Assembly: GCA_012512455.1 (NCBI GenBank)
Contig: JAAZEF010000094.1
Span: forward strand, 1-33,084
Origin: Erysipelothrix sp.
Lineage (GTDB): Bacteria; Bacillota_I; Bacilli_A; Erysipelotrichales; Erysipelotrichaceae
Direction: 5' to 3'
Length of the DNA: 33,084 nt
This document shows positions 8,663 through 31,455 of this stretch, in pieces; positions within the stretch are counted from its first letter, which is position 1, and each line of letters starts with the position of its first letter. Under the pieces are notes generated by a model. The model was given only the letters and a program-made list of their open reading frames with translations. It made no database searches and had not been told where the DNA came from. The position numbers and the translations under genes are program-made.

Positions 8663-9781
8663 TTACCAAGCTAACCCCGCCCTATCAACGGTTTTAATAT
8701 TGGCTTGTTTAAGCCCTTGAAATAGAATGTTACGACTCGCATTAATGTCGCGGTCATGAATTTTATGACAAGATGTACATTGCCATTCTCGAATTGAGAG
8801 TGGCATTTTTTCATGTCTGATACCACAGCTCGAACAAATTTGGGATGAAGGAAACCATCTATCAACATAGACAATTCTTCTTCCATACCATTTTGCTTTA
8901 TAGTTAAGTTTTTCAACAAAAAGTGTCCAAGCCACATCAGCAATGCTTCTAGATAATTGTCGATTTGAAATCATCTCTTTAATTTCTAGTTGTTCGATAC
9001 AAATTACATCGTGGTTTTTGATGATAAGTGTACTTAATTTGTCTAGAAAATATTTTCGTTGATTGAAGCTTTTTTCATAAAGTCTGGCTACTTTTCGTTT
9101 CTGCTTTTGATAATTGGAAGCTTGATACAAAGGTTTGTTATCTTTAATTGCTTTTTCTCTTCGCTTAGAAAGTTTTCGTAGTTCTTTATTAATTTTAGTG
9201 TCCATTTGTCTATTAAAGCGTCTATTTCCAATTTTTTGTCCTGTTGATAATATGGCGAAGTTTTCAAGTCCTAAATCTATACCAACAACCTTGTTTGTCT
9301 TCTTCATTGGTTCTATATTTTCTTTTACAAGAAGAGAAAGGAAATAATTACCAGATGCTTTTTTAGAGAAAGTTAAAGAAAGAATGAGACCTTTAGGATT
9401 GATGTGAACTTTGGCTTTTAATGGTTTGTCAAAGAGTGATATATCTATTTGATATTTGTTAAGTAATTTAATAGATTCTCTGTTCTTAATTCGAAAGCTT
9501 TGTTTACTATAAGACTTACTTTTGAATTTTATTTCATTGATATTCTTAGACTTAATCGCACGATACAGGTTTGCTTGAGCATATTCTAAAGACGTGATAT
9601 CGACTTCTTTAAGATATGGATATTCTTCAATTAATGATTGAAGATTTTGTGCTTTCTTTGTTTTTCTTTGATCTAAGGTGAGATTAAATACTTTACGAGA
9701 GCAACCAAAAGATTGTGCCAAAATTTGTTTTTGTTGGTCTGTTGGATAGATACGAAATTTATAACCTTTATATTGTTCCAT
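8663..9781 (-). mobile_element. tnpB: RNA-guided endonuclease TnpB (IS200/IS605-IS607 family accessory protein), solo element without tnpA
   Basis: 372 aa; RuvC motifs VGIDLGLENFAIL (D), ICIEQLEIKEM (E), HDRDINASRNI (D); zinc ribbon CSSC...CTSC; no neighbouring tyrosine or serine transposase ORF. Confidence 0.9.
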
Positions 9782-16117: not shown

Positions 16118-17248
16118 TTAAATATTTTGTTGAATGTGAGCGATGAGTTTCTCTGCTTCCCCTTTTTGAAAAGGAGACATGAGGGCTTCATAGCGATTTA
16201 ATTCAAAACTTTCTGTGGATGTCATAATTAAATCATAGCCATTGGTATAACAAATACATTCAACTTGTTTTTCTTCCTTGAGATTTTTCATCACATCGCT
16301 GGTCATTTCGACAGGTAGTGTGATAAGTACAGTATCGTTAAGGTGAATGATTTGATAGGAAATGGTCATCGTTTCTTTAATGTTAGTATATGAATCAACT
16401 TGTTTTCTTTTTAAGTCGATTTGATATTTTCTGACTTCAAATTTATTAAGTTCACCGATGTAATCTGGATGTTTTAATAGGATGTTCATTTCATAGGCTA
16501 TTTGTCTGCCAAATTCGTCTAATTGTTCGTAAGTATCACTTTTCGTGAATGTTTTAGTATTAATATTACCGGCATTTCCGTTTAGAAACATAACCATTTC
16601 ATGAGTTCGATTATGGGTTAAAACGGCACCTGGAAAATCTGCACTTAATTTATTGTTCATTTTACCTAAGACTGAGGCTTGGCAAGCAAAGTGATAGAGT
16701 AACAATAATTTTGAATTGTCTAAGAGAAAGCGGACCATAAAAATATGAGGGTCAGTAGCGCTTGTTTTATCTTCACGGATACTTCCAATGTTGTTGAAAG
16801 TTGTTTGGATGACTTCCATTCTGAAATGGTGCCACTGAGCCATGCTTTCTTTGATGGCTTCGACTGTTATTTGTGCTATTTGATTAATTAATGGTAATTG
16901 AGGAGTGCCAAAAAAACCACTCATATCTTTAAGTGGACCGATCATAGTGTTGACGACACCTGCTGGCCCTGAATGGGTGTGGGTGGCACTTAGAACGAAA
17001 TGATTAATATTAATTCTTTCTTCTTGACACAGTTTTTTAATTCGGTCGATTAATAAGTGATCAACTCCGATAAGGTCATAGCTAATAAGTGCTGTTATTT
17101 CATCTTTTTGGTTATCTTTAATAAGAATACATCTTAAAAATAGTGGGTCATGAATAGCGATTGCTTCACGGGTTGGTTGATAACCCGCCATCGTTATTGG
17201 TACCTGTGGTGTTATTTCTTTTTGTGAATATCCTAATACAAATCCCAC
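16118..17248 (-). CDS. Neutral/alkaline non-lysosomal ceramidase-domain protein
   Basis: GYSQKEITPQVPITMAGYQ...HDPLFLRCILIKD and LSATHTHSGPAG zinc-type motifs; AAGGAGG upstream of a GTG at 17248 favours that start over 17290. Confidence 0.75.
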   Translation of the reverse strand: MGFVLGYSQKEITPQVPITMAGYQPTREAIAIHDPLFLRCILIKDNQKDEITALISYDLIGVDHLLIDRIKKLCQEERININHFVLSATHTHSGPAGVVNTMIGPLKDMSGFFGTPQLPLINQIAQITVEAIKESMAQWHHFRMEVIQTTFNNIGSIREDKTSATDPHIFMVRFLLDNSKLLLLYHFACQASVLGKMNNKLSADFPGAVLTHNRTHEMVMFLNGNAGNINTKTFTKSDTYEQLDEFGRQIAYEMNILLKHPDYIGELNKFEVRKYQIDLKRKQVDSYTNIKETMTISYQIIHLNDTVLITLPVEMTSDVMKNLKEEKQVECICYTNGYDLIMTSTESFELNRYEALMSPFQKGEAEKLIAHIQQNI

Positions 17249-17353
17249 AGCAAAACCTCCTTGTTCAATGTTATTACAGTTTCCTATCACTTATTATGAC
17301 ATATATTCAATCTTTTTTTAAGTAGCTTTGTGTATTGATGGTATTCTTTGCAT

Positions 17354-18009: not shown

Positions 18010-18038
18010 AAAAAAAGAAAAAGAGTAAGGTGGCTAAC

Positions 18039-20453
18039 ATGATTTTCTTATCCCTACATCAACTAGCGACTATGTGTCAAGGTGAACTAATTAACAGTAA
18101 AGATGCCTATAAAGTAAAAGGCGTTTATATCAATACCAGAGAACATCAAGGTGAAGATATTTTTATTCCTATCATTGGTGATAATTTTGATGGACATCAA
18201 TATGTAGAAAATGCGTTTGAACAAGGCGCAAAGGTCTCTTTGTTTCAAAGAGATCATGATTTTTCTTCACTAGATAAACCTCTCATTTTGGTAGATGATA
18301 CAAGACTTGCTTTGGGAAATCTGGCTAAGGCATATCGGTTGTCGATGAATGCGAGTGTGATTGGTATTACTGGTTCTAATGGAAAGACTTCAACAAAAGA
18401 TATTCTTTATCATTTACTCAATCCTTATTTTGAAGTCAGTGCGACAGTGGGTAATCGTAACAATGATATCGGTTTGCCTCTTACGATATTGGAGAGTGAC
18501 CCTTCTGTTAATCTCTTTATTTTAGAGATGGGGATGTCTGCTTTAGATGAAATTGACTATTTACAAGAGATTGCGATGGCGAGTATTGGTCTAATTACAT
18601 CTATAGGTGCTGCTCATTTAAATGATTTGGGATCTTTGGACAATATCATAAAAGCAAAATTAGAAATTACTCATCACATGCCTGATGATGGTGTGTTGAT
18701 TGTTAATGGAGATCATGAGCGATTTTTAGAGATTTTAAGGAGTTATCAATTAACTCAAAGGGTTGTGACGTATGGACTTAAGTCTTCTAATGATTATGTT
18801 ATTACGGAGACTCATCAATTTAAGGATACCTTAGTGTTTCATTGTGAACAGTTGACAGATAATCCTATTATTGTGCCTTTGTTGGGGAGACATCAAGCAT
18901 TGAATACTTTAGGAGCATTGTTGGTGGGTAAGGAATTACATATACCAATTGAGACCTTGTTGAGTAATTTAGCGAATGTATCAATTACTGCTTCGCGTAA
19001 TGAAGTAGTTAAAATTGGTCAAGCAATGATTATAGATGACTCTTACAAATCAAATCCTGAGGCTTTGACTGAAAGTTTAATGATGTTGTCTGAATTTTCG
19101 AGTCATGATCGTAAAATTGCGGTGTTGGGTGATATGTTGGATTTGGGTCCTAGGGAAATAGAGTACCATCAAGAAATCTCGAGATTGATTGATTCGTTAG
19201 TGATTGATCGCGTGTATACAATTGGTAAGTTGGCTCATCATTTTAGTGATTTTAATACCAAAATATCTCATCATTTTACAAGTCATGATGAACTATTAGC
19301 CGCATTGAAACCATGGTTGAAACAGCCTTCTATTATTCTATTTAAGGGTGCGAATGCTTTACGTTTATTTGATGTTATTGAACAATTAAAAATGGAGGAA
19401 AAGAAAATGAAAAAAGTTGCGTTAATATTTGGTGGAAAGAGTTCAGAGTATCTTGTGTCTTTATCGTCAATTTCTTCTGTGATTCAAAACTTTCCTAGTG
19501 AAAAATATGAAATGTGTTTAATTGGAATGTCTTTAGAGGGACGTTTCTATACTGGAGATTACACTTTAGAGGAAATCGAAAACAATACTTGGTTAGAGAA
19601 TAAAACAAGTCGTGAGGTGGTCTTAAAACCTGGCGATGATTCTTGTTTTATGGCCGTGGATACCTTGGAAGAGACTGTGGTTGATGTGGCGTTTAATATG
19701 ATTCATGGTAAATATGGTGAAGATGGCGTCTTACAATCGTTAATGAAGGCTTCTAATATTTCTTTGACGGGTTGTGATCAACAAAGTTCTATCTTAGCTT
19801 ATGACAAAGATATTACACATCGCTTGTTGGATAATGAAGGAATTCTTAAGGCTAAATATCGTACCTTAACGTCTTCTTTGACTCTTGAACAGTATGGTGA
19901 TTTAACAGATTATTTAGGTCAAAAAGTGATTATTAAACCAGCGCGTGAGGGTTCTTCTTATGGAATTTCAGTGGCGGATAATTATGAAGATTTTAAGATT
20001 GGGTTAGAGGAAGCTTTAAGATTTGATACGAAAGTAGTTATTGAAGAGTTTATTAAGGGCTTTGAAGTCGGTGCAGCGGTATTGGAAAAAGATGGCAGAC
20101 TCTTAGTGGGGGATGTTGATGAGATTGAACTAGCGACTGATTTCTTTGACTATGAAGGAAAATATGCATTCAAAAATGCTCAGATTGTGTGTCCGGCTCG
20201 AATTGATGAAAGTGCGACTCGTATTGTGAAAGAGAGCGCGAAGTTAGTATTTAAACTGTTGGGTTGTCGTGATTTTTCACGAGTGGATTTCTTTTATGGT
20301 GAAGATGGACAGGTCTATTTTAATGAGATTAATACCATTCCTGGGTTTACTTCTCATTCCCGTTTTCCTAATATGATGAAGGGAATTGGCATTGATTATA
20401 AAGAAATAATTGAAACTTTGATTGAGAATGCCTTGAATCGTATTCATGGATAG
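18039..20453 (+). CDS. Fusion: MurF (UDP-MurNAc-tripeptide--dipeptide ligase) + VanC-like D-Ala--D-X ligase
   Basis: Single ORF; MurF half with VIGITGSNGKTSTKDIL and GNRNNDIGLPLTILE; ligase half from about residue 457 (MKKVALIFGGKSSEYLVSLSS, HGKYGEDG, KPAREGSSYGI, NEINTIPGFTSHSRFPNMMKG). ATG 18039 preferred over GTG 18030 (AAGGTGG SD). Confidence 0.93.
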   Translation: MIFLSLHQLATMCQGELINSKDAYKVKGVYINTREHQGEDIFIPIIGDNFDGHQYVENAFEQGAKVSLFQRDHDFSSLDKPLILVDDTRLALGNLAKAYRLSMNASVIGITGSNGKTSTKDILYHLLNPYFEVSATVGNRNNDIGLPLTILESDPSVNLFILEMGMSALDEIDYLQEIAMASIGLITSIGAAHLNDLGSLDNIIKAKLEITHHMPDDGVLIVNGDHERFLEILRSYQLTQRVVTYGLKSSNDYVITETHQFKDTLVFHCEQLTDNPIIVPLLGRHQALNTLGALLVGKELHIPIETLLSNLANVSITASRNEVVKIGQAMIIDDSYKSNPEALTESLMMLSEFSSHDRKIAVLGDMLDLGPREIEYHQEISRLIDSLVIDRVYTIGKLAHHFSDFNTKISHHFTSHDELLAALKPWLKQPSIILFKGANALRLFDVIEQLKMEEKKMKKVALIFGGKSSEYLVSLSSISSVIQNFPSEKYEMCLIGMSLEGRFYTGDYTLEEIENNTWLENKTSREVVLKPGDDSCFMAVDTLEETVVDVAFNMIHGKYGEDGVLQSLMKASNISLTGCDQQSSILAYDKDITHRLLDNEGILKAKYRTLTSSLTLEQYGDLTDYLGQKVIIKPAREGSSYGISVADNYEDFKIGLEEALRFDTKVVIEEFIKGFEVGAAVLEKDGRLLVGDVDEIELATDFFDYEGKYAFKNAQIVCPARIDESATRIVKESAKLVFKLLGCRDFSRVDFFYGEDGQVYFNEINTIPGFTSHSRFPNMMKGIGIDYKEIIETLIENALNRIHG
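19394..19409 (+). promoter_or_regulatory. Internal ribosome-binding site plus ATG at the MurF/ligase junction
   Basis: GGAGG (19394-19398), 8-nt spacing, ATG (19407), in frame with the ligase domain start MKKVALIFGG. Confidence 0.75.
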
Positions 20454-21531
20454 AGCTTTTTTAGAGGTCAATGTTGATGCATTGCGTCATAATATTGAAC
20501 AAATTAATCGTAGTATTGGTCGTTCTAAGATAATGGCGGTGGTGAAGGATCAATGTTATGGCTTGGGATTAGAGGCTGCTTTTTATTGTCAAGAACTAGG
20601 TATTGATTTTTTTGCGGTGGCGACGATTGATGAAGCGATTCAATTGCGTCAATTTGATATTTATCAACCTATTTTGATTTTTGGATATACTCACCCTACT
20701 CGTTTTGATGATTTGATAACTTATAACTTAATACAGACTGCGATTTCTTATGAGTACTTGTTATTGTTGGAAAATTTTCAAAAAGGTATTGAGGTTCACT
20801 TAAAAATAAATACAGGGATGAATCGCTTGGGTATACCTTATGATTTTGATTTAATTGAGTCTTTTTTTACATTAAAAAACATTAAAATTACTGGTATTTA
20901 TACACATCTATTGTCTTCAGATCAACCTGGTGAGGGTCATAAAAAGAGCATTGAACAGTTGTCTCTTTTTGATAAGTTACTTGGTCATTTAGATAATTGT
21001 AAACTTAATTATGGTCTGACTCATGTTCATAATTCGGCAGGAATTGTTTACTTTGGTGACTCTTATGTTTATGACTATGTACGTCCTGGTTTATTGTTGG
21101 CTGCTTCGAGCCGTTTTGATAATTATCGTGAGGTAGTTACTCTGAAGGCGAGAGTGGCGATGGTGAAAGAAGTTTCAGTTGGTGAGAATATTGGTTATGG
21201 GGTGGAGAACACCTTAAATAAGAGTACTAAAGTGGCGACTGTGACGATTGGTTATGGTGATGGTCTACAGCGACGTTTGGCACAGTTGGGCTTTAAGTTG
21301 CGTGTTTCTGGTCAATGGTGTCGTGTTATTGGTAGAATTTGTATGGATCAGTTATTGATAGATGTGAGTGATGTGAATGTCGATATCGGAGATGTTGTTG
21401 AAATCATTCATGATGAATTTACAGTAGATGATATGGCTGATTTATTGGGGTCTATTCCTAATGAGGTGTTGACTCAATTGGGAAGTCGTATTGAAAGGGT
21501 GTTGGTTTATGACGACAAAGAAAGCCTATAA
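20446..21531 (+). CDS. Alanine/serine racemase (PLP fold III), similar to the racemase domain of VanT
   Basis: IMAVVKDQCYG (PLP Lys region), DFFAVATIDEAIQLRQ, YDYVRPGLLL, ENIGYG, GYGDGLQRRL, GRICMDQLLIDVSD; ATG overlaps the fusion stop by 8 bp. Confidence 0.9.
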   Translation: MDRAFLEVNVDALRHNIEQINRSIGRSKIMAVVKDQCYGLGLEAAFYCQELGIDFFAVATIDEAIQLRQFDIYQPILIFGYTHPTRFDDLITYNLIQTAISYEYLLLLENFQKGIEVHLKINTGMNRLGIPYDFDLIESFFTLKNIKITGIYTHLLSSDQPGEGHKKSIEQLSLFDKLLGHLDNCKLNYGLTHVHNSAGIVYFGDSYVYDYVRPGLLLAASSRFDNYREVVTLKARVAMVKEVSVGENIGYGVENTLNKSTKVATVTIGYGDGLQRRLAQLGFKLRVSGQWCRVIGRICMDQLLIDVSDVNVDIGDVVEIIHDEFTVDDMADLLGSIPNEVLTQLGSRIERVLVYDDKESL

Positions 21532-22492
21532 TAAATTAATTGATGATTTAAGAATTGTGGCGGCTATTTTAGTTGTGGCGATTCATACGGCTCCTTTTGT
21601 TGAATTTAATGAAGTGTTTTCATATATTATCACTAATATTATAGGGCGTTTGGCGGTTCCTTTCTTTTTTGTGTTGAGTGGTTACTTTTTATTTAGAAAG
21701 TTTAAATATCTGACGAAGGAAGAACAATATCAATCATTTATTAAGACAGAGTTGTCATTATTGAAGACTTATGCTTTGACGTTTATCATTTATATCCCGG
21801 TGTGGATTTATCTTCATGGGATTGATGTGACGTTGTTTGTTAAGGACTTATTGTGGGATGGCCTTCATTATCATTTATGGTATTTTCCTGCTTTAATTGT
21901 GGGGATTGCGATTGTTTATTTCTTAAATAAGAATCTAAAATTTGACCATATGTTTATTGTGGTGGTTCTACTTTATCTAGTTGGTGCACTTTTTAATGTC
22001 TATGGTCCTTTGTTGCCTGAAGCCTTGGTGAACTTAATGAGTAATACGCGTAATGGTATCTTTTTTGCTCCGTTGTTTATTTTTATTGGTTTGTTTTTAG
22101 CACTAAAGAAATTACGTTTTAATAATGTAATTGTTCTGATTTCTGTAGTTCTATTTTTATTTGAACCGTTATTATTATATTTCACCAATTTATCAGATCC
22201 ATTAAATGCAATGTTTCTTACATTACCAATTACCGTCTATTTCTTGATGACTAAAGTACTCGCTCATAAGGGTAGGACACATAATTCACTCTTTTATCAT
22301 AATGTGTCTTTGTATATTTATGTTATTCATCCAGTGGTCATTTTGGGGAATCGTTTAATTGTGGGTAAGATTTTGAACATGGAATTAACGAACACTCTAA
22401 ATTTTGTGTTGACGACCGTTTTCTCTCTATTGGCAGCTTATGTCTATCAATTTATGAAGGAGTATTATGAAAAAAACAAATCAGTTAACTAG
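21509..22492 (+). CDS. Acyltransferase-3 family membrane protein, similar to the membrane domain of VanT
   Basis: DDLRIVAAILVVAIHTAPF (AT3 R/H motif), GRLAVPFFFVLSGYFLF, YHLWYFPALIVG, TRNGIFFAPLFIFIG; overlaps the racemase 3' end. Confidence 0.85.
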   Translation: MTTKKAYNKLIDDLRIVAAILVVAIHTAPFVEFNEVFSYIITNIIGRLAVPFFFVLSGYFLFRKFKYLTKEEQYQSFIKTELSLLKTYALTFIIYIPVWIYLHGIDVTLFVKDLLWDGLHYHLWYFPALIVGIAIVYFLNKNLKFDHMFIVVVLLYLVGALFNVYGPLLPEALVNLMSNTRNGIFFAPLFIFIGLFLALKKLRFNNVIVLISVVLFLFEPLLLYFTNLSDPLNAMFLTLPITVYFLMTKVLAHKGRTHNSLFYHNVSLYIYVIHPVVILGNRLIVGKILNMELTNTLNFVLTTVFSLLAAYVYQFMKEYYEKNKSVN

Positions 22493-23021
22493 TATGGCGC
22501 TGATTGCGGCGTTGTGTTTTATAGCTTTTAATTATTTTAAAATCGATGTTCATGTGATGGGTGGACGGACCTCTTTTCACTTTGCGAATAGTTTTGTGGT
22601 GTTGGGTGCTCTTTTATTGGGTGGTTTGCCTGGAGGTTTGGCGGGCGCAGTTGGTTTAACGCTGGCTGACTTAACGACAGGTTATGCTCATGTGGCACCG
22701 CGTACTTTTTTTCTAAAATTAATGATTGGTTTAATTGTGGGTCTGATTGCTCATCGTTTTGGTAAAATTAATTCGTTACATAAAACTTCTGATATCCTGA
22801 AATGGAGTATCTTGGCAGGTACTGGTGGTATGATTTTTAATGTGATAGTTGATCCTTTGGTGGGTTATTTATTTAATCGTTTCATTTTAGGAGTTGATGC
22901 TAATCCGGCGACGATTATTGCGACATGGTCTGCTGGGGTGACGGCTGTTAATGGAGTCATTACTGTCGTGATGGCGACGTTGGCTTATATGGCTTTGAGA
23001 AAGATGAAGTTTAAGGTTTAA
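22467..23021 (+). CDS. ECF-type transporter S component, substrate unknown
   Basis: 184 aa, polytopic; FHFANSFVVLGALLLGGLPGGLAGAVGLTLADL signature; AAGGAG SD; overlaps the AT3 gene end. Confidence 0.8.
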   Translation: MKKTNQLTSMALIAALCFIAFNYFKIDVHVMGGRTSFHFANSFVVLGALLLGGLPGGLAGAVGLTLADLTTGYAHVAPRTFFLKLMIGLIVGLIAHRFGKINSLHKTSDILKWSILAGTGGMIFNVIVDPLVGYLFNRFILGVDANPATIIATWSAGVTAVNGVITVVMATLAYMALRKMKFKV

Positions 23022-23031
23022 ATAAGTGTGA

Positions 23032-23056
23032 CCTAAGATAATCTTAGGTTTTTTTA
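23032..23056 (+). terminator. Rho-independent terminator closing the murF-ligase operon
   Basis: CCTAAGA-TAA-TCTTAGG followed by TTTTTTT. Confidence 0.85.
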
Positions 23057-23069
23057 ATAGTCATTTGAT

Positions 23070-24651: not shown

Positions 24652-25473
24652 TTAGAAAATTCCGAAGAATGATCCTACAATAGCTAGAACCAATAGGAAT
24701 AAAATTCCGTGAGTTGGTTTCCAGTTATGTTTTGTAAATAGATAATATAGTAATAAAGTTAATGCTAATGGGATTAGTTTAGGTAATACACCATCTAAAA
24801 TTGATTGAACGTTAACGACTGCTTCACCTTGTGTATATTGTAAAGCTAAAGTAGTTCCACCAAAGTTTGATGTAAGTGCACCAACTACGAATACTCCTAA
24901 GATACCTGCTGCACGTGAGAATTCACGGGCATTTTCAGTTAGGACATCAATAGCTTGTGAACCTAAACGATATGACCAGTGCATGAGTCCGAAACGAACA
25001 ATGAACTGAACCACATTAAATATAACTAAGAACATGATTGGACCTAAGATAGATCCATCGATAGCCCAGTTAGCTGTAATACCAGCAGTAATTGGAACTA
25101 GTGTAAACCAGAATAGAGCATCCCCAATACCACCTAAAGGACCCATTGCTGCGACACGTACTGAACGAATTGTGTCAACTGGTGCTTTAGCTTGTTCTAA
25201 GGATAGAACGATACCCATAACGAATGTTACTAAGAATGGGTGAGTATTAAAGAACTCAAGGTTATGACGCATTGATAAGGATAAATCTTCCTTATTAGTA
25301 TGAATTTTTTCAAGGCCTGGTAAAATACCCCATAGCCAACCAGCAGCTTGCATACGCTCATAGTTGAACGATGCTTGTAGGAATAATGATCCCCACACCA
25401 TTTTGTTAAGAGTACCCTTATCTAATGGTGCAGCTGGAGTTGTATCAACATATTCTTTTACATTATATGCCAT
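24652..25473 (-). CDS. PTS mannose/fructose/N-acetylgalactosamine family IID component
   Basis: LFLQASFNYERMQAAGWLWGILPGLEKI; VAAMGPLGGIGDALFWFTLVPI; start 25473 or 25482. Confidence 0.95.
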   Translation of the reverse strand: MAYNVKEYVDTTPAAPLDKGTLNKMVWGSLFLQASFNYERMQAAGWLWGILPGLEKIHTNKEDLSLSMRHNLEFFNTHPFLVTFVMGIVLSLEQAKAPVDTIRSVRVAAMGPLGGIGDALFWFTLVPITAGITANWAIDGSILGPIMFLVIFNVVQFIVRFGLMHWSYRLGSQAIDVLTENAREFSRAAGILGVFVVGALTSNFGGTTLALQYTQGEAVVNVQSILDGVLPKLIPLALTLLLYYLFTKHNWKPTHGILFLLVLAIVGSFFGIF

Positions 25474-26305
25474 CTTCTTCATCTCCTCCGTGACCTACAG
25501 TGCCTGCAAGGTTTTTAATTTTGACGTTAGCTTGGTAGTCTGCAAGAGCGATTGCTACTCCAATGAACGAAATAATAAGTAGAGCTGAACCACCAAGTGT
25601 TGCTACGAAGGCGCCATTGGCGTCAACATAACCGACTGCTCCAACAATTGTAGCAAGTGCGAAACCTGCAAAGTAGTAACCCCATAGTTCGCCTGACATC
25701 ATAATACGAAGTAATGTAGCGAAACCTACGTAACGAAGCATACCACCACCGACGTTGAAGCCGTTTTGTAGCCAAGCATATTCATCAAAGAATGCTTGAA
25801 TTTGAGGACCGAATGCTGAACCAGCTGTTAAAGCTAATACGGCAACGATTCCGAAAGCTGTTCCTAATAGAGTCATTGACAGCAAGTTAATATTACGAAT
25901 ACCTGCTGGGTTAGCTTCATCTGCTGCTTTATCCGCAACACCCATAAGTGGTGAGAATAAAGTAAAGATGAGTGTAACCATCATTTGACCTAGAATAGCA
26001 AATGGTACTGCGATACCAACTGCTGCAGCAGGCTCTAAGCCTAATCCTACTGCGAAGATAGTTGCAACAACGCCACCAATAACTGCGTTTGGAGGTTGTG
26101 CACCACCGATTGGCATACTACCAATTTGAATCAATTGATAAGTACCACCAACAACAAGTCCGATTTGTAAATCTCCTAAAATTGCTCCTACTACTGGACC
26201 AACAACAATTGGTTGATAGAGGGATTCTAGGAAACTAAATTGGTCAATAGCAGCAATAAATGTCACTATGAAAACCAAGATAATTTGTAAAGCATTAAAA
26301 TCCAT
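25463..26305 (-). CDS. PTS mannose/N-acetylgalactosamine family IIC component
   Basis: VVGPVVGAILGDLQIGLVVGGTYQLIQIGSMPIGGAQPPNAVIGGVVAT. Confidence 0.95.
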   Translation of the reverse strand: MDFNALQIILVFIVTFIAAIDQFSFLESLYQPIVVGPVVGAILGDLQIGLVVGGTYQLIQIGSMPIGGAQPPNAVIGGVVATIFAVGLGLEPAAAVGIAVPFAILGQMMVTLIFTLFSPLMGVADKAADEANPAGIRNINLLSMTLLGTAFGIVAVLALTAGSAFGPQIQAFFDEYAWLQNGFNVGGGMLRYVGFATLLRIMMSGELWGYYFAGFALATIVGAVGYVDANGAFVATLGGSALLIISFIGVAIALADYQANVKIKNLAGTVGHGGDEEDGI

Positions 26306-26351
26306 AATTTTCCCCTTCTATACAGTTTCCTGTATCAAGATTTTTCTTTAT

Positions 26352-26828
26352 TTAAATAAAGAGATTTTTGTTGTCTTCGCTTGATTCAGTGGGAACTCGT
26401 TTAATTTCGATTTCTACACCTAAATCACGAAGAGCTTTGAATGCGGCTACGTCGTTATCATCTACAGAAACTGAACGGCCTGCAGCACGTTTACCTTCCG
26501 CATGATGCATATTACCGACGTTTACCTTTTTAATAGGTACACCGCCTTCTACTAGCGTCAATACGTCTTGTGGAGTTTCACATATAATGAAAATCTTTTG
26601 ACGATCGGCCGCTTTGTGAATTACGTCAATAGTTTTTTGAAGTGAGAAGTAACGAGTCTGTGCAGACTGCGGTGCGCTCATATCCATCAAACCTTGACGT
26701 GGTTTGTTTGTGGACACTTCATCATTGGCGACTAACAATAAGTTAGCTCCGATAACGTTGGTCCATTGAGTTGCAACCTGACCATGAATTAGTCGGTTAT
26801 CAATACGGGTTAACACAATATTTGGCAT
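26352..26828 (-). CDS. PTS mannose/N-acetylgalactosamine family IIB component
   Basis: LTRIDNRLIHGQVATQW phospho-His motif. Confidence 0.96.
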   Translation of the reverse strand: MPNIVLTRIDNRLIHGQVATQWTNVIGANLLLVANDEVSTNKPRQGLMDMSAPQSAQTRYFSLQKTIDVIHKAADRQKIFIICETPQDVLTLVEGGVPIKKVNVGNMHHAEGKRAAGRSVSVDDNDVAAFKALRDLGVEIEIKRVPTESSEDNKNLFI

Positions 26829-26884
26829 GTTTTTCCTCCTTACAATATAAAGATTATTTAATCTTCGTATTAATTATATCGTAA

Positions 26885-26898
26885 AGAAGGCGCTTTCA
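26885..26898 (-). promoter_or_regulatory. cre-like (CcpA) site upstream of the PTS IIB-IIC-IID operon
   Basis: Minus strand TGAAAGCGCCTTCT, close to the cre consensus TGAAAGCGNTNNCA. Confidence 0.55.
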
Positions 26899-26982
26899 CT
26901 AGTAATACACTTATAAGTATTAACAAATATCTTATCTTTTTTAAAAGTGTTATAATTAATCAACAAAACCAAAGGAGTAGAC

Positions 26983-28143
26983 ATGTATAACAAGACAACA
27001 AGTTTCAATCAGACTAAATATTATGACATTGTAAGTCAGTCAGAGATACAAGCAGATTATGAATTCACTCTCTATGAGACGCTTCATAAGTCATCATCCA
27101 CACTAATGCACTTTAATAGGACCATTTATGTTCAATCTGTTTATGGCATTATTGCCTTAATGATTGCAGAGTCGCCACATCATAAAATCGAACAGTACAT
27201 CTTACATGGTATTGTTGCGATTCACCCAGGGATGCATTTTTATTTATTAAAAATCACCGATGACGCTAAGGCAGGACTTTATCGAGCAGCATATGATCAT
27301 CCCCAATATTATCAATCCAATCATCCTATTATGATTAATGAAGTGAAGGAAACATTCTTTTTACCTCAGATTTATGCCTCTTATTATCAAATTAAAAAGG
27401 CTCCCTATTACTATGATTTTGAGAGACATTATTTTTGGGAGATGACGGTTGTTAATTCTGGAGTGCTTCAGACTAATATTGATGGCATTAATTATGAATT
27501 ACATAAAAATGACCTTATCTTTTATGGACCTTTACAGAAACATAACCAACGTATTGAAGATGACATGTGTACCTATGTCACCATTATGTTTGATTGTTAT
27601 CCCATTCATAGAACTCTTTTAAATAAAATATTTCATTTAGATCAAATGCAATCTCGATTGATGGAAGATATTGTTCGCTATACAGATAATGAATATGACG
27701 AGTACAACAATGAACTCTTTATTAATCAGTTGAAGGAACTTATTATTTTATTATTAAGACAAGATCCAAAGGAAATTCCTCAACATCACCATACGACGAC
27801 GATGCGTTTTAACTTCGAGAATGATTTATTGAATAGAATATTGGAACATATTCATAATAATATTGAGGGCGGTCTTAGAGTCATTGATTTATGTCAATAT
27901 TTTGCGATTAGCCGTGCGACCATCCAGAGTATCTTCAATAATAATTTAGAGATGACGCCTAAACAATATATAAATGATGTGCGACTTAAACAAGCTAAGG
28001 TTTTAATTAATGAGTCGAAATATACCTTGTCAGAGATTGCGAATCGTTTAGGCTATTCGTCTATCCACTATTTCTCTAGAGCTTTTAAGGAAGAGTTTAA
28101 CACAACACCTTCTGAATACGCGAAATCTTTAGTTAAGAAGTAA
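26983..28143 (+). CDS. AraC-family transcriptional regulator
   Basis: C-terminal RVIDLCQYFAISRATIQSIFNNNLEMTPKQYINDVRLKQAKVLI...EIANRLGYSSIHYFSRAFKEEFNTTPSEY. Confidence 0.95.
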   Translation: MYNKTTSFNQTKYYDIVSQSEIQADYEFTLYETLHKSSSTLMHFNRTIYVQSVYGIIALMIAESPHHKIEQYILHGIVAIHPGMHFYLLKITDDAKAGLYRAAYDHPQYYQSNHPIMINEVKETFFLPQIYASYYQIKKAPYYYDFERHYFWEMTVVNSGVLQTNIDGINYELHKNDLIFYGPLQKHNQRIEDDMCTYVTIMFDCYPIHRTLLNKIFHLDQMQSRLMEDIVRYTDNEYDEYNNELFINQLKELIILLLRQDPKEIPQHHHTTTMRFNFENDLLNRILEHIHNNIEGGLRVIDLCQYFAISRATIQSIFNNNLEMTPKQYINDVRLKQAKVLINESKYTLSEIANRLGYSSIHYFSRAFKEEFNTTPSEYAKSLVKK

Positions 28144-28171
28144 AAAAGTTTGGAAATTACCAAACTTTTTT
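28142..28171. terminator. Bidirectional terminator between the convergent araC-type and kbaZ-type genes
   Basis: Perfect 12-bp inverted repeat AAAAAAGTTTGG-aaatta-CCAAACTTTTTT. Confidence 0.9.
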
Positions 28172-29458
28172 AATAGCATAAATATAGTCGTCTAATGTAA
28201 CACCAATCACATCATTAATTAAGGCTGTTGGTGTTTTTTCTAATCGTCCTTCATTAACCTTACGATATTGGACTGGTAAGAATTGACTAATTAGATTCAT
28301 GGGTAAGTCGACACTTTCTAGATTGTCTAATAGCTGTTTTATGGCTGAGTCGACTGCTGGTTGTGGTAGATAGTAACGAGCTCTATCAGAGAAAGAAAAG
28401 GCACGTTTAGTGGCTAATTCTTCTGGAGTTCCATGATAGTATGGTTGCCATGAGCCAGGGTTTTCTAACATCACTTTTTCAAGTGTTTCAATAAAGCGTG
28501 ATTGTTTTTCTTCACTAAAGAGTTGTTGTTCAATGTAACTTAAGGCGAAGAGTGCTTCACGGTAAGCGAAGGTTAAGCCTGGTCCTACTTTAAGAATGGC
28601 GATGCCATCTTCTACCATTTGTTTTAAATGGTATTTTGATTGATAGTCTGAGGAGTGACCTTCAAAGACTATTGGATCAAATTGTGTTAGTGCTGCTGTT
28701 AATTCTTTGGCAGCTTCACGGTTATAGAAGTCAACCTTCTCATCACCATATTCAACACCTGGTTGGACAACGACACCCACGACTTGATTGAAGACATGTC
28801 CTACACCATGGCTTTCAAGTTGAGCTTTAAATTCATTGACAGTATTGATGAAATCATCGACTGTAGTGACTTGCATTTCTTCAACATCAGTTGCACCACC
28901 TGGTACAGGAACTTCACTTCCTATAATATAGGCTAATTGAGGTGCATCTGGATTAGTAGTTAACAATTCTTGGTAAGCTTGTTCTGTGACTTGAATTAAT
29001 TCAGCTCCACGACGAGCAATTACAGTTGTTGATAGTGGTTCTGTTGTGGAGTCACTGGCGACACGCATACTAGTGTCAATATGAATCTTTGTGAAGCCTG
29101 CTAATACGTATTCTTTGACCAAAGTTTTGGCTTCTTCCATAGCTTGTGCTTCTTCATATTTGATAAAAGTGAGTGGACCTAAATGGTCGCCCCCTAAAAT
29201 AACTTGTGATAATTCAATGTCTACTTCTTTCGCTAATTTATGAACCATATTGACAAAGTCTTTAGGTTTCATGCCTGTATAGCCACCGTATTGATCAACT
29301 TGGTTGGCTGTGGCTTCTATGACTGCGGTTGTATTGGTTTCTTTTGCTTTTATGAGGACTTCTTTGATGACGACTTCATTAGCGGTACATGCTGAGTAGA
29401 CACCCATCTCGTCCCCTGTTTTTCTATTTTTTAATAACTCTATTAAACGATTTTCCAT
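28157..29458 (-). CDS. Tagatose-1,6-bisphosphate aldolase-associated subunit, GatZ/KbaZ family
   Basis: MGVYSACTANEVVIKEVLIKAKETNTTAVIEATANQVDQYGGYTGMKPKDF; VILGGDHLGPLTF. Confidence 0.93.
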   Translation of the reverse strand: MENRLIELLKNRKTGDEMGVYSACTANEVVIKEVLIKAKETNTTAVIEATANQVDQYGGYTGMKPKDFVNMVHKLAKEVDIELSQVILGGDHLGPLTFIKYEEAQAMEEAKTLVKEYVLAGFTKIHIDTSMRVASDSTTEPLSTTVIARRGAELIQVTEQAYQELLTTNPDAPQLAYIIGSEVPVPGGATDVEEMQVTTVDDFINTVNEFKAQLESHGVGHVFNQVVGVVVQPGVEYGDEKVDFYNREAAKELTAALTQFDPIVFEGHSSDYQSKYHLKQMVEDGIAILKVGPGLTFAYREALFALSYIEQQLFSEEKQSRFIETLEKVMLENPGSWQPYYHGTPEELATKRAFSFSDRARYYLPQPAVDSAIKQLLDNLESVDLPMNLISQFLPVQYRKVNEGRLEKTPTALINDVIGVTLDDYIYAIKKVW

Positions 29459-29467
29459 TAAATTCTC

Positions 29468-29743
29468 CTATTTCTCTATGGCTGAAATTGCGTAGCGTGA
29501 TACAGTGATCACGGCACCTGATTTAACTTCGATATCTGCAGTTTGTTCACTTAGACTACGGATTGTTCCGTATAGCCCGTTGGAAAAACTAACTTTGTTT
29601 CCTACTTTTAGTTCTTGGTGTAGCTCTTCGAAGTATTTTCTTCTTTTCTTTACATTACGATAATTAGCCAGCTGCATAATTAAAATACCGAGACTGACTA
29701 TGATAATAATCGCAATAGAGGATGCTAAAATATTTTCCCACAT
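29468..29743 (-). CDS. YajC-family small membrane protein
   Basis: 91 aa; one TM plus LKVGNKVSFSNGLYGTIRSLSEQTADIEVKSGAVITVSRYAI, YajC-like. Confidence 0.8.
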   Translation of the reverse strand: MWENILASSIAIIIIVSLGILIMQLANYRNVKKRRKYFEELHQELKVGNKVSFSNGLYGTIRSLSEQTADIEVKSGAVITVSRYAISAIEK

Positions 29744-30177
29744 TAGATGCCATCTCCTTCATCAAAATCTTCTTTGACTTCAATTTCTTTTACAAATTGA
29801 ACTTGTTCTTTTCCAGTATCTTCTGATAATTTAGCGAATTCGACTACATTATCATGGGCTAATCTGGAGAATACCCCATCGATTAACATACCTAGGTTGG
29901 TTCCGGCCATGACACCGACGTTGTCGTGACTTTGAGCTAACATAAGGGCTGTCTTAAAGGGTGTACCGCCGAAGAGATCTGTGTAAATTATAACCCCTTC
30001 ACATTCTTTCTTTAATTCGATGATGGCATTTTCAATGTCTTCACTGATTTGTTCTAAAGGGTTCTCTTCTAGAAAGTCAATCACATGATAATGGTCTTGT
30101 TTTCCTGCGATCATTTCGAGTGAGCTGGTGATGCCACTCGCAAACTGTGCGTGTCCGCTGATGATGATTCCGATCAT
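29743..30177 (-). CDS. PTS mannose-family IIA component
   Basis: IGIIISGHAQFASGITSSLEMI His motif; YTDLFGGTPFKTAL. Confidence 0.95.
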   Translation of the reverse strand: MIGIIISGHAQFASGITSSLEMIAGKQDHYHVIDFLEENPLEQISEDIENAIIELKKECEGVIIYTDLFGGTPFKTALMLAQSHDNVGVMAGTNLGMLIDGVFSRLAHDNVVEFAKLSEDTGKEQVQFVKEIEVKEDFDEGDGI

Positions 30178-30179
30178 TT

Positions 30180-31346
30180 TTATTCTCCTTGATAATCGTA
30201 AAGGGTAACTCCTTCAACTACACGATTGACCATTCCAGTTGGGAATGGATTGTCTGGTGTTTTATTGAGGGCTACTGATTTAAGTGCTGAGAAACTTTGG
30301 GCAGTCATCACATAGACAAGACCTAGTAACTCATCATTTAATGGTGTGTCGTAGACAATTAAATAGTCTGCGTTTGAATAATTTTCTTCATACTTCTTTG
30401 TAGTGACGACTAACACTTTAGCTACTTGACCATTAATTATTTCATTGAATAAATCTTGGTCATAGCGTTGAGTATATTCATCTTGAGAAGTGTAGAGGAC
30501 AACAAGTGTTTTATCATTTAAGAATGATTTTGGTCCGTGTCTAAATCCTAAGGATGTATCATGTAGTGAGACTACTTCTCCTGTAGTTAATTCTAACATC
30601 TTAAGTCCTGATTCCTGAGCTAATCCTTTATGATTATTAGATCCTAAATACACAATTCTTTCGAAGTTAAAATCTTGTACAATCTTTTCGACTGTTTTAA
30701 CTTTATCATTGACGAACAACTCACCTAAGTCACCAAGTTGTTTAACCACTTTTTTATTGGTTTCAAAGTTGTCTAAAGTGAGTGCTAAATAAGCTGCTAG
30801 GACCATATTAGTATAGGATGATGTCATTGCGAAGGCTTTGTCATGTGTTTCTTCTGGTAAGTTGATGGCGAATACTTTTGATTTGTCTGACTTAAATTTA
30901 GCGAGTTCACCTTCTGCGTTACAAGTAATAACTAAATGATAGAGTGTATCGACAATGGCTTCCGCGTGTTCTACCGCACCGATGGATTCAGGACTGTTGC
31001 CTGATCGTCCAAAACTTACTAGTAAAGTTGGTGTTTCTTTATCGAAATAAAGATCAGGATTACTGACGATGAGAGTCGTGGCGATACTTTCAACTCTGAA
31101 GTTGTAGCGTTTTCTTAGGACATCGATGAGTGTGTTGCCTACAAATTCTGAAGTACCTGCGCCGCTAAAAATAATTCTATAATTTTTATGACTGAGCACT
31201 TCGTTAACGAATTGGTCTAATTCTTTGAAGTTTTCCTCAATGATTCCTGCTGTTTTTTGCCATGTGGCAGGTTGTTGTTTTATTTCGCTTACGGTAAATT
31301 CCGCATTCTTTTGGACTAATAATTCTTTATTTAAATCAAATAACAT
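30180..31346 (-). CDS. agaS: SIS-domain sugar isomerase/deaminase, AgaS-like
   Basis: FSGAGTSEFVGNTL, LVSFGRSGNSPESIGAVEHAE; GAGGAAAAAGG SD directly before ATG 31346 favours that start over 31403. Confidence 0.88.
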   Translation of the reverse strand: MLFDLNKELLVQKNAEFTVSEIKQQPATWQKTAGIIEENFKELDQFVNEVLSHKNYRIIFSGAGTSEFVGNTLIDVLRKRYNFRVESIATTLIVSNPDLYFDKETPTLLVSFGRSGNSPESIGAVEHAEAIVDTLYHLVITCNAEGELAKFKSDKSKVFAINLPEETHDKAFAMTSSYTNMVLAAYLALTLDNFETNKKVVKQLGDLGELFVNDKVKTVEKIVQDFNFERIVYLGSNNHKGLAQESGLKMLELTTGEVVSLHDTSLGFRHGPKSFLNDKTLVVLYTSQDEYTQRYDQDLFNEIINGQVAKVLVVTTKKYEENYSNADYLIVYDTPLNDELLGLVYVMTAQSFSALKSVALNKTPDNPFPTGMVNRVVEGVTLYDYQGE

Positions 31347-31363
31347 ACCTTTTTCCTCATTTC

Positions 31364-31377
31364 TATTCGCTTTCATT
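31364..31377 (-). promoter_or_regulatory. Partial cre-like element upstream of agaS
   Basis: Minus strand TGAAAGCGAATAGA; good left half, poor right half. Confidence 0.3.
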
Positions 31378-31455
31378 ATATCAATTACCTTGTTTCTTAT
31401 CACTGATAAGCCTTATAACTTTTAATAACCTTTGTGTCTAAACTAACAATTTTGA

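Follow-up and report, generated by a model that had tools for sequence, protein, structure and literature searches.

Organization of the operon

The window, namely the whole 33,084-nucleotide stretch analysed here (Erysipelothrix sp., assembly GCA_012512455.1, contig JAAZEF010000094.1), carries four plus-strand genes at positions 18039–23021, with overlaps of 8, 23 and 26 nt between them. The first gene, preceded by a Shine-Dalgarno-like AAGGTGG (18027–18033, plus strand), is a single open reading frame of 804 amino acids from its ATG (18039–20453), in which profiles identify a MurF half (18039–19406) and a D-Ala:D-Ser-type ligase half. Inside this frame a GGAGG Shine-Dalgarno sequence (19394–19398) lies 8 nt before an internal ATG at 19407, from which the VanG-like ligase half (19407–20453) extends. 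The first gene overlaps by 8 nt the gene of a VanT-type PLP racemase, predicted to act on serine and alanine (20446–21531), in which the codon of Asn339 lies at 21460–21462. An AT3 (acyltransferase-3) membrane protein is encoded at 21509–22492 from an ATG, with an alternative TTG start at 21491; the 23-nt overlap with the racemase gene is counted from the ATG. The last gene (22467–23021), overlapping the AT3 gene by 26 nt, encodes an ECF transporter S component (PF07155), and an intrinsic terminator-like stem-loop with a 9-pair stem and a T-run follows on the same strand at 23030–23057. The arrangement given in a preliminary description of this DNA, four overlapping open reading frames followed by one terminator, is thus confirmed.

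The neighbouring genes are of ordinary kinds. Those upstream, on the opposite strand, encode flavodoxin, a ceramidase-like protein, Sua5, GlyA and Upp; FMN reductase and HAD phosphatase genes lie downstream. The G+C content of the operon is in line with that of its surroundings. Another genome of the same genus (G001) keeps all four genes in the same order with 67–80% protein identity, indicating that the fused frame is not a chance product, and the agreement of this genome and of many others indicates that the operon is real.

The MurF–ligase frame

The MurF half scores 360 bits against TIGR01143, over the cut-off. A predicted structural model of the fusion (mean pLDDT 84, pTM 0.59) has a helix of residues 443–457 that continues straight into the first strand of the ligase, and the two halves of the model match MurF and VanG structures. 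MurF and the ligase lie in one frame in the genus of the window (G000 and G001) and in G009, G189, G029, G062, G064 and G049. G062 and G064 are fused whereas three members of their genus (G004, G063 and G065) keep the two genes apart. In-frame joins represent at least four separate events on a tree of 58 rows. The fused frame of G049, a genome of family f2, has an ordinary Ddl signature in its ligase, and locus L038 shows that an ordinary Ddl-type ligase can be fused to MurF.

A Shine-Dalgarno match of 5–7 nt stands just before the ATG of the free ligase in all eight joined frames, whereas a match of at least 5 nt is found at 12 of 159 other internal ATGs of these frames, which served as the control. 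In split relatives the gap from murF to the ligase gene ranges from −29 to +12 nt. The retained ligase Shine-Dalgarno sequence and ATG, together with these tight gaps, make the joined frame look like the result of a lost stop between two coupled genes. These sequence features also suggest that free ligase may be made from the fused frame by internal initiation. The earlier view that the ligase is hard-wired to MurF has to be softened because the start signals for a free ligase are kept and because a Ddl-type ligase (L038) can be fused too.

The ligase half belongs with Van ligases

In profile searches the ligase half scores 379 bits against the VanG model NF000091, above the best D-Ala-D-Ala model (301 bits), VanC (248 bits) and VanA (215 bits). 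Since its scores fall below the curated NCBIfam cut-offs (379 against 495 bits for the VanG model NF000091 and 312 against 520 bits for the D-Ala:D-Ser ligase model NF000207), the name VanG should not be given to it. In agreement with the profiles, VanG (4fu0, 285 bits) heads a PDB sequence search, with VanA and all Ddl behind it, and VanG 4fu0 also ranks first in a fold search. The strings EYLVSL, HGKYGEDG and NTIPGFTSHSRFPNMM, quoted in the preliminary description as shared with VanC rather than with Ddl, are all present. The likeness to Van ligases rather than to Ddl stands, but the sequence of the ligase is closer to VanG than to VanC.

In the 58-row tree the window ligase and its relatives fall into a clade with VanA, VanB, VanG and VanN with a support of 100/97, and the same clade takes in the ligases of other murF–ligase–racemase operons of Erysipelotrichaceae. 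Outside it lie the ordinary Ddl ligases, among them that of Staphylococcus aureus and those linked to MurF in family f2; a 123-row tree agrees on the placement of the window ligase. AU tests reject a nesting of the window clade in standard Ddl (p = 6e-7) and its union with the MurF-linked f2 Ddl (p = 0.006); a single clade of all Erysipelotrichaceae operon ligases is neither confirmed nor rejected (p = 0.42). The tree proposed earlier as a check on the ligase, with a place among ordinary Ddl as the outcome that would speak against a Van-type enzyme, thus comes out on the Van side.

At VanG positions 17, 243, 252, 258, 322 and 324 the window ligase has Y-D-F-Y-H-R, identical to VanG and VanN, whereas S. 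aureus Ddl has H-G-Y-Y-F-M. The window ligase therefore agrees with VanG and differs from S. aureus Ddl at five of the six specificity positions (Y17, D243, F252, H322 and R324), and the Gly/Tyr/Met-type signature of ordinary Ddl is absent from it. The MurF-linked ligases of family f2 have the Ddl signature HGYYIM. VanA and VanB have D243, F252 and R324 in common with the window ligase, but they lack Tyr258 and have His17. In the VanG structure D243, F252 and R324 are reportedly determinants of D-Ser use, and VanC2 mutants at the positions equivalent to F252 and R324 are said to shift towards D-Ala-D-Ala. The signature of the window ligase speaks against a main product ending in D-Ala and equally against one ending in D-Lac.

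The racemase, the AT3 protein and the ECF S component

The racemase scores 324 bits against vanT-G and 266 bits against alr, whereas the separate racemases of relatives show the opposite order, alr above the VanT profile. Asn339 aligns with Tyr354 of alanine racemase, and VanT-G (PDB 4ecl) also has Asn at this position, where Asn is reportedly a residue of serine specificity in the VanT structure. Tyr occupies the Tyr354 position in every one of the 20 separate racemases retrieved from related genomes; L044, a racemase encoded close to an operon but on the opposite strand, has His.

Among related genomes, an Asn racemase lies beside 70 of 75 ligases with the D243/F252/R324 triad and Tyr258, so that two independent enzymes jointly carry the serine signature. 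The sister genome G009 is an exception: its fused ligase is of this type, yet the racemase has Tyr and no AT3 gene adjoins. A ligase of this type can therefore be retained when the serine equipment is incomplete. In the related operons of G024 and G027 the ligase signature is HYYYHL and the racemase has Ser or Asp in place of Asn.

The AT3 protein matches the N-terminal membrane half of VanT with about 153–154 bits (154 to vanT-CELN). Another operon AT3 protein also matches this half, whereas the controls, seven AT3 proteins of relatives not linked to such an operon, gave no VanT-membrane match in six cases. The NCBIfam models vanT-L-mem and vanT-L-cat are both matched, and the AT3 domain typical of VanT is present as a gene adjoining the racemase. 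The resemblance of these two proteins to the two halves of VanT, noticed earlier from shared strings, is borne out by the vanT-G score and by the 153 bits to the VanT N-terminal half. A role of VanT as an L-serine transporter has been proposed (PMC9558356). The ECF S component is found in this genus only, and a PDB search with it gave no match.

Copy number in the genome and spread in the family

The genome assembly comprises 1.37 Mb in 124 contigs, with a completeness of 97.6% and a contamination of 6.6%. It has one Ddl (a single PF07478 match), one alanine-type racemase, one AT3 protein and one MurF over the TIGR01143 cut-off, all four in the operon. These sole-copy counts rest on the 97.6% completeness, and a second ligase missed in the 124-contig assembly is possible but unlikely. 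Since Ddl and racemase are each single, the operon route is not a backup: the sole racemase must supply D-Ala as well as D-Ser, and whichever residue terminates the wall has to be put there by this ligase. With one racemase making both, the ligase will encounter D-Ala and D-Ser alike, and its product may be mixed.

No member of the VanX family (PF01427) and no protein of VanXY grade was detected in the genome; two VanY-domain proteins fit LdcB best and reach only 80–96 bits for VanXY against a cut-off of 250. No VanRS adjoins the operon. The remark that the window contains neither VanRS nor VanXY is therefore upheld for the operon neighbourhood and, as regards VanXY, for the whole genome, and the suggested search for a second ddl or a vanXY elsewhere returned neither.

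A tightly coupled operon of murF, ligase and racemase, with or without AT3, occurs in many genera of Erysipelotrichaceae, and its ligase and racemase are the sole copies also in G002, G004, G011, G022 and G030. Some other genera of the family possess Ddl and Alr of the ordinary kind instead, and others, such as that of Dielma fastidiosa (G025), carry both sets. In a family-wide search G016 and G017 gave no match to the racemase Asn motif pattern, which is too short to be informative; as these two genomes matched nothing at all, the absence of Ddl from them is ascribed to missing sequence rather than to biology, and probably likewise in G036. A murF and ligase that are split is the usual form of the operon. 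The description of the locus as a housekeeping-style operon is thus supported by the sole ligase and racemase, with the qualification that the split form is widespread and that the in-frame join alone is special.

A proposed route to D-Ala-D-Ser and its alternatives

These sequence comparisons make it likely that the operon is a housekeeping pathway for D-Ala-D-Ser and represents a variant of the Clostridium innocuum system. It is probably also the only means by which the cell makes the two terminal residues of the peptidoglycan stem, with D-Ala-D-Ser as the dipeptide that it is built to deliver. The racemase would make D-Ser and, as the only one, D-Ala too, and the AT3 membrane protein would probably supply or channel L-serine to it. 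The ligase half, produced both fused to MurF and free, would couple D-Ala with D-Ser, and the MurF half would add the dipeptide to UDP-MurNAc-tripeptide to give pentapeptide[D-Ser]. The outcome would be a constitutive low-level vancomycin resistance that does without VanRS or VanXY.

That the ligase is instead an ordinary housekeeping D-Ala-D-Ala ligase sharing only ancestry with Van, accompanied by an ordinary alanine racemase, is unlikely. The order murF–ddl–alr is nothing unusual, D-Ala has to come from the one racemase, and in family f2 ligases that are linked, or even fused, to MurF carry the HGYYIM signature of Ddl. However, the phylogeny and the AU tests place the ligase outside Ddl, and its D/F/R signature, the Asn339 of the racemase with its co-occurrence with the ligase type, and the VanT-specific AT3 protein all speak for D-Ser. 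A D-Ala-D-Lac product like that of VanA and VanB would fit the wider clade that the window ligase shares with them and the common D243, F252 and R324. This reading was rejected as very improbable because the window ligase keeps Tyr258, absent from VanA and VanB, and has Tyr17 instead of their His, and because at this locus a racemase, not the lactate dehydrogenase VanH, adjoins the ligase.

It is similarly improbable that the operon is a recently acquired vancomycin-resistance cluster. The closest named single proteins are indeed VanG and VanT-G, but the operon holds the only Ddl, racemase and MurF of the genome, the same operon type is spread over genera of the family, no VanXY-grade protein exists in the genome, no VanRS adjoins, and the G+C content matches the surroundings; a recent acquisition was rejected on these grounds. 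The least probable of all is a D-amino acid other than Ser or Ala at position 5: the operons of G024 and G027, with their different ligase and racemase signatures, indicate that the pair can diverge, but the window signature is identical to that of VanG and VanN.

Beyond the D-Ala-D-Ser route favoured for this organism, a broader and more doubtful idea may be put forward tentatively. D-Ala-D-Ser might be the native peptidoglycan terminus in much of Erysipelotrichaceae, and the D-Ser and D-Lac ligases of Van resistance clusters might derive from such housekeeping murF–ligase–racemase operons, in which the ligase became joined to MurF repeatedly.

If the D-Ala-D-Ser route is true, low-level vancomycin resistance belongs to the basic make-up of this gut-type organism, and a widespread family of gut bacteria owes its resistance to a last-line drug to the ordinary course of its wall synthesis. 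This would have a bearing on the interpretation of "vanG/vanT-like" metagenome matches and on which commensals survive oral vancomycin. The operon also gives the D-Ser branch of Van ligases a possible origin that can be tested, and it may be relevant to the vancomycin resistance intrinsic to Erysipelothrix; the case papers on this resistance state no mechanism.

Comparison with known systems

C. innocuum, a member of the class Erysipelotrichia (PMC9942572), has an intrinsic resistance that is attributed, according to the account in PMC8888209 citing David 2004 (J Bacteriol 186:3415), to two chromosomal genes leading to serine-terminated precursors; as described there, these precursors have a low affinity for vancomycin. 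The operon resembles this system, as described, in combining a chromosomal housekeeping ligase with a serine-type racemase. Unlike the system so described, it has MurF and ligase in one frame, a ligase and a racemase that are sole copies, and a separate AT3 gene that follows. With the VanG/VanC-type clusters of enterococci, acquired or intrinsic, it shares the ligase clade, the specificity residues, a serine-type racemase and a VanT-like membrane domain, but it differs from them in having no VanXY-grade protein, no adjoining VanRS and no backup Ddl, and in having MurF in the frame of the ligase.

Unlike the VanT fusion, the racemase and AT3 protein are encoded by separate genes in reversed order. 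The VanL cluster, in which VanT is split into VanTm and VanTr, likewise has the racemase and the membrane domain on separate polypeptides, but here the racemase precedes AT3 and VanXY is absent. As in MurC–Ddl (PRK14573) and MurF–Alr (PRK11930), enzymes for cell-wall precursors are joined in one frame; unlike in these, the partner is a Van-type, D-Ala:D-Ser-like ligase on MurF that keeps its own ribosome-binding site. New features are the fusion with MurF in one frame, the presence of the enzymes as sole copies, the way in which ligase and racemase residues vary together, and the distribution of the operon across the family.

Variation of the operon among related genomes

MurF-ligase fusions are also present in other genomes. 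In the related genome G009 (loci L036/L198), MurF is fused to a D-Ser-type ligase. The next gene encodes a racemase whose key residue, at the position of Tyr-354 of alanine racemase, is Tyr, and this fused locus has no adjoining gene for an acyltransferase-3 membrane protein (AT3). The racemase of G189 (L143/L197), which belongs to the same genus as G009, has Asn at this position. In G049 (L038) of family f2, MurF is joined in frame to an ordinary Ddl-type ligase, and a Van-type ligase is also encoded at a separate locus (L188). Genus g64 (L153–L156 and L199–L201) has an operon of the split type on a long branch, with the ligase signature HDFYSR at VanG positions 17/243/252/258/322/324 and a racemase of the Asn type. 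The genomes of this genus are 1.3–2.5 Mb, with a G+C content of about 37–38% in the g64 loci read, values that would be compatible with Erysipelothrix, a genus with intrinsic vancomycin resistance.

The murF-ligase-racemase operons of G027 (L039) and G024 (L048) have the ligase signature HYYYHL, and residue comparison places Asp or Ser at the Tyr-354 position of their racemases. The operon ligase and racemase are the sole copies in each genome. These two operons possibly have a different substrate specificity.

ECF S component and other genes of the window

The gene for the ECF S component (22467–23021, plus strand) overlaps the AT3 gene. Its conservation is limited to the genus of the window, with 80% identity in G001. 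The ECF S component could be either unrelated to the pathway or a supplier of a cofactor.

Elsewhere, the window encodes an IS605-family OrfB/TnpB-type protein (8663–9781, minus strand) and a ceramidase-like protein (16118–17290, minus strand), whose PF04734 match (47 bits) covers the N-terminal part of neutral/alkaline ceramidase and whose gene adjoins glyA and Sua5. An ordinary sugar cluster (24652–31403) includes two proteins that by eye resemble PTS IIC/IID, an AraC-type regulator, a GatZ/KbaZ-like protein and an AgaS-family isomerase.

VanG-VanT loci and an unlinked VanT-like AT3 gene

Dielma fastidiosa (G025) encodes a VanT-like AT3 protein (L218, 108 bits) outside its operon. A genuine VanG-type ligase adjoins a full VanT fusion of about 710–720 amino acids in G031 (L043) and G056 (L012/L193). 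These VanG-VanT loci, whose hosts are Erysipelotrichales genomes, are distinct from the housekeeping operon type.
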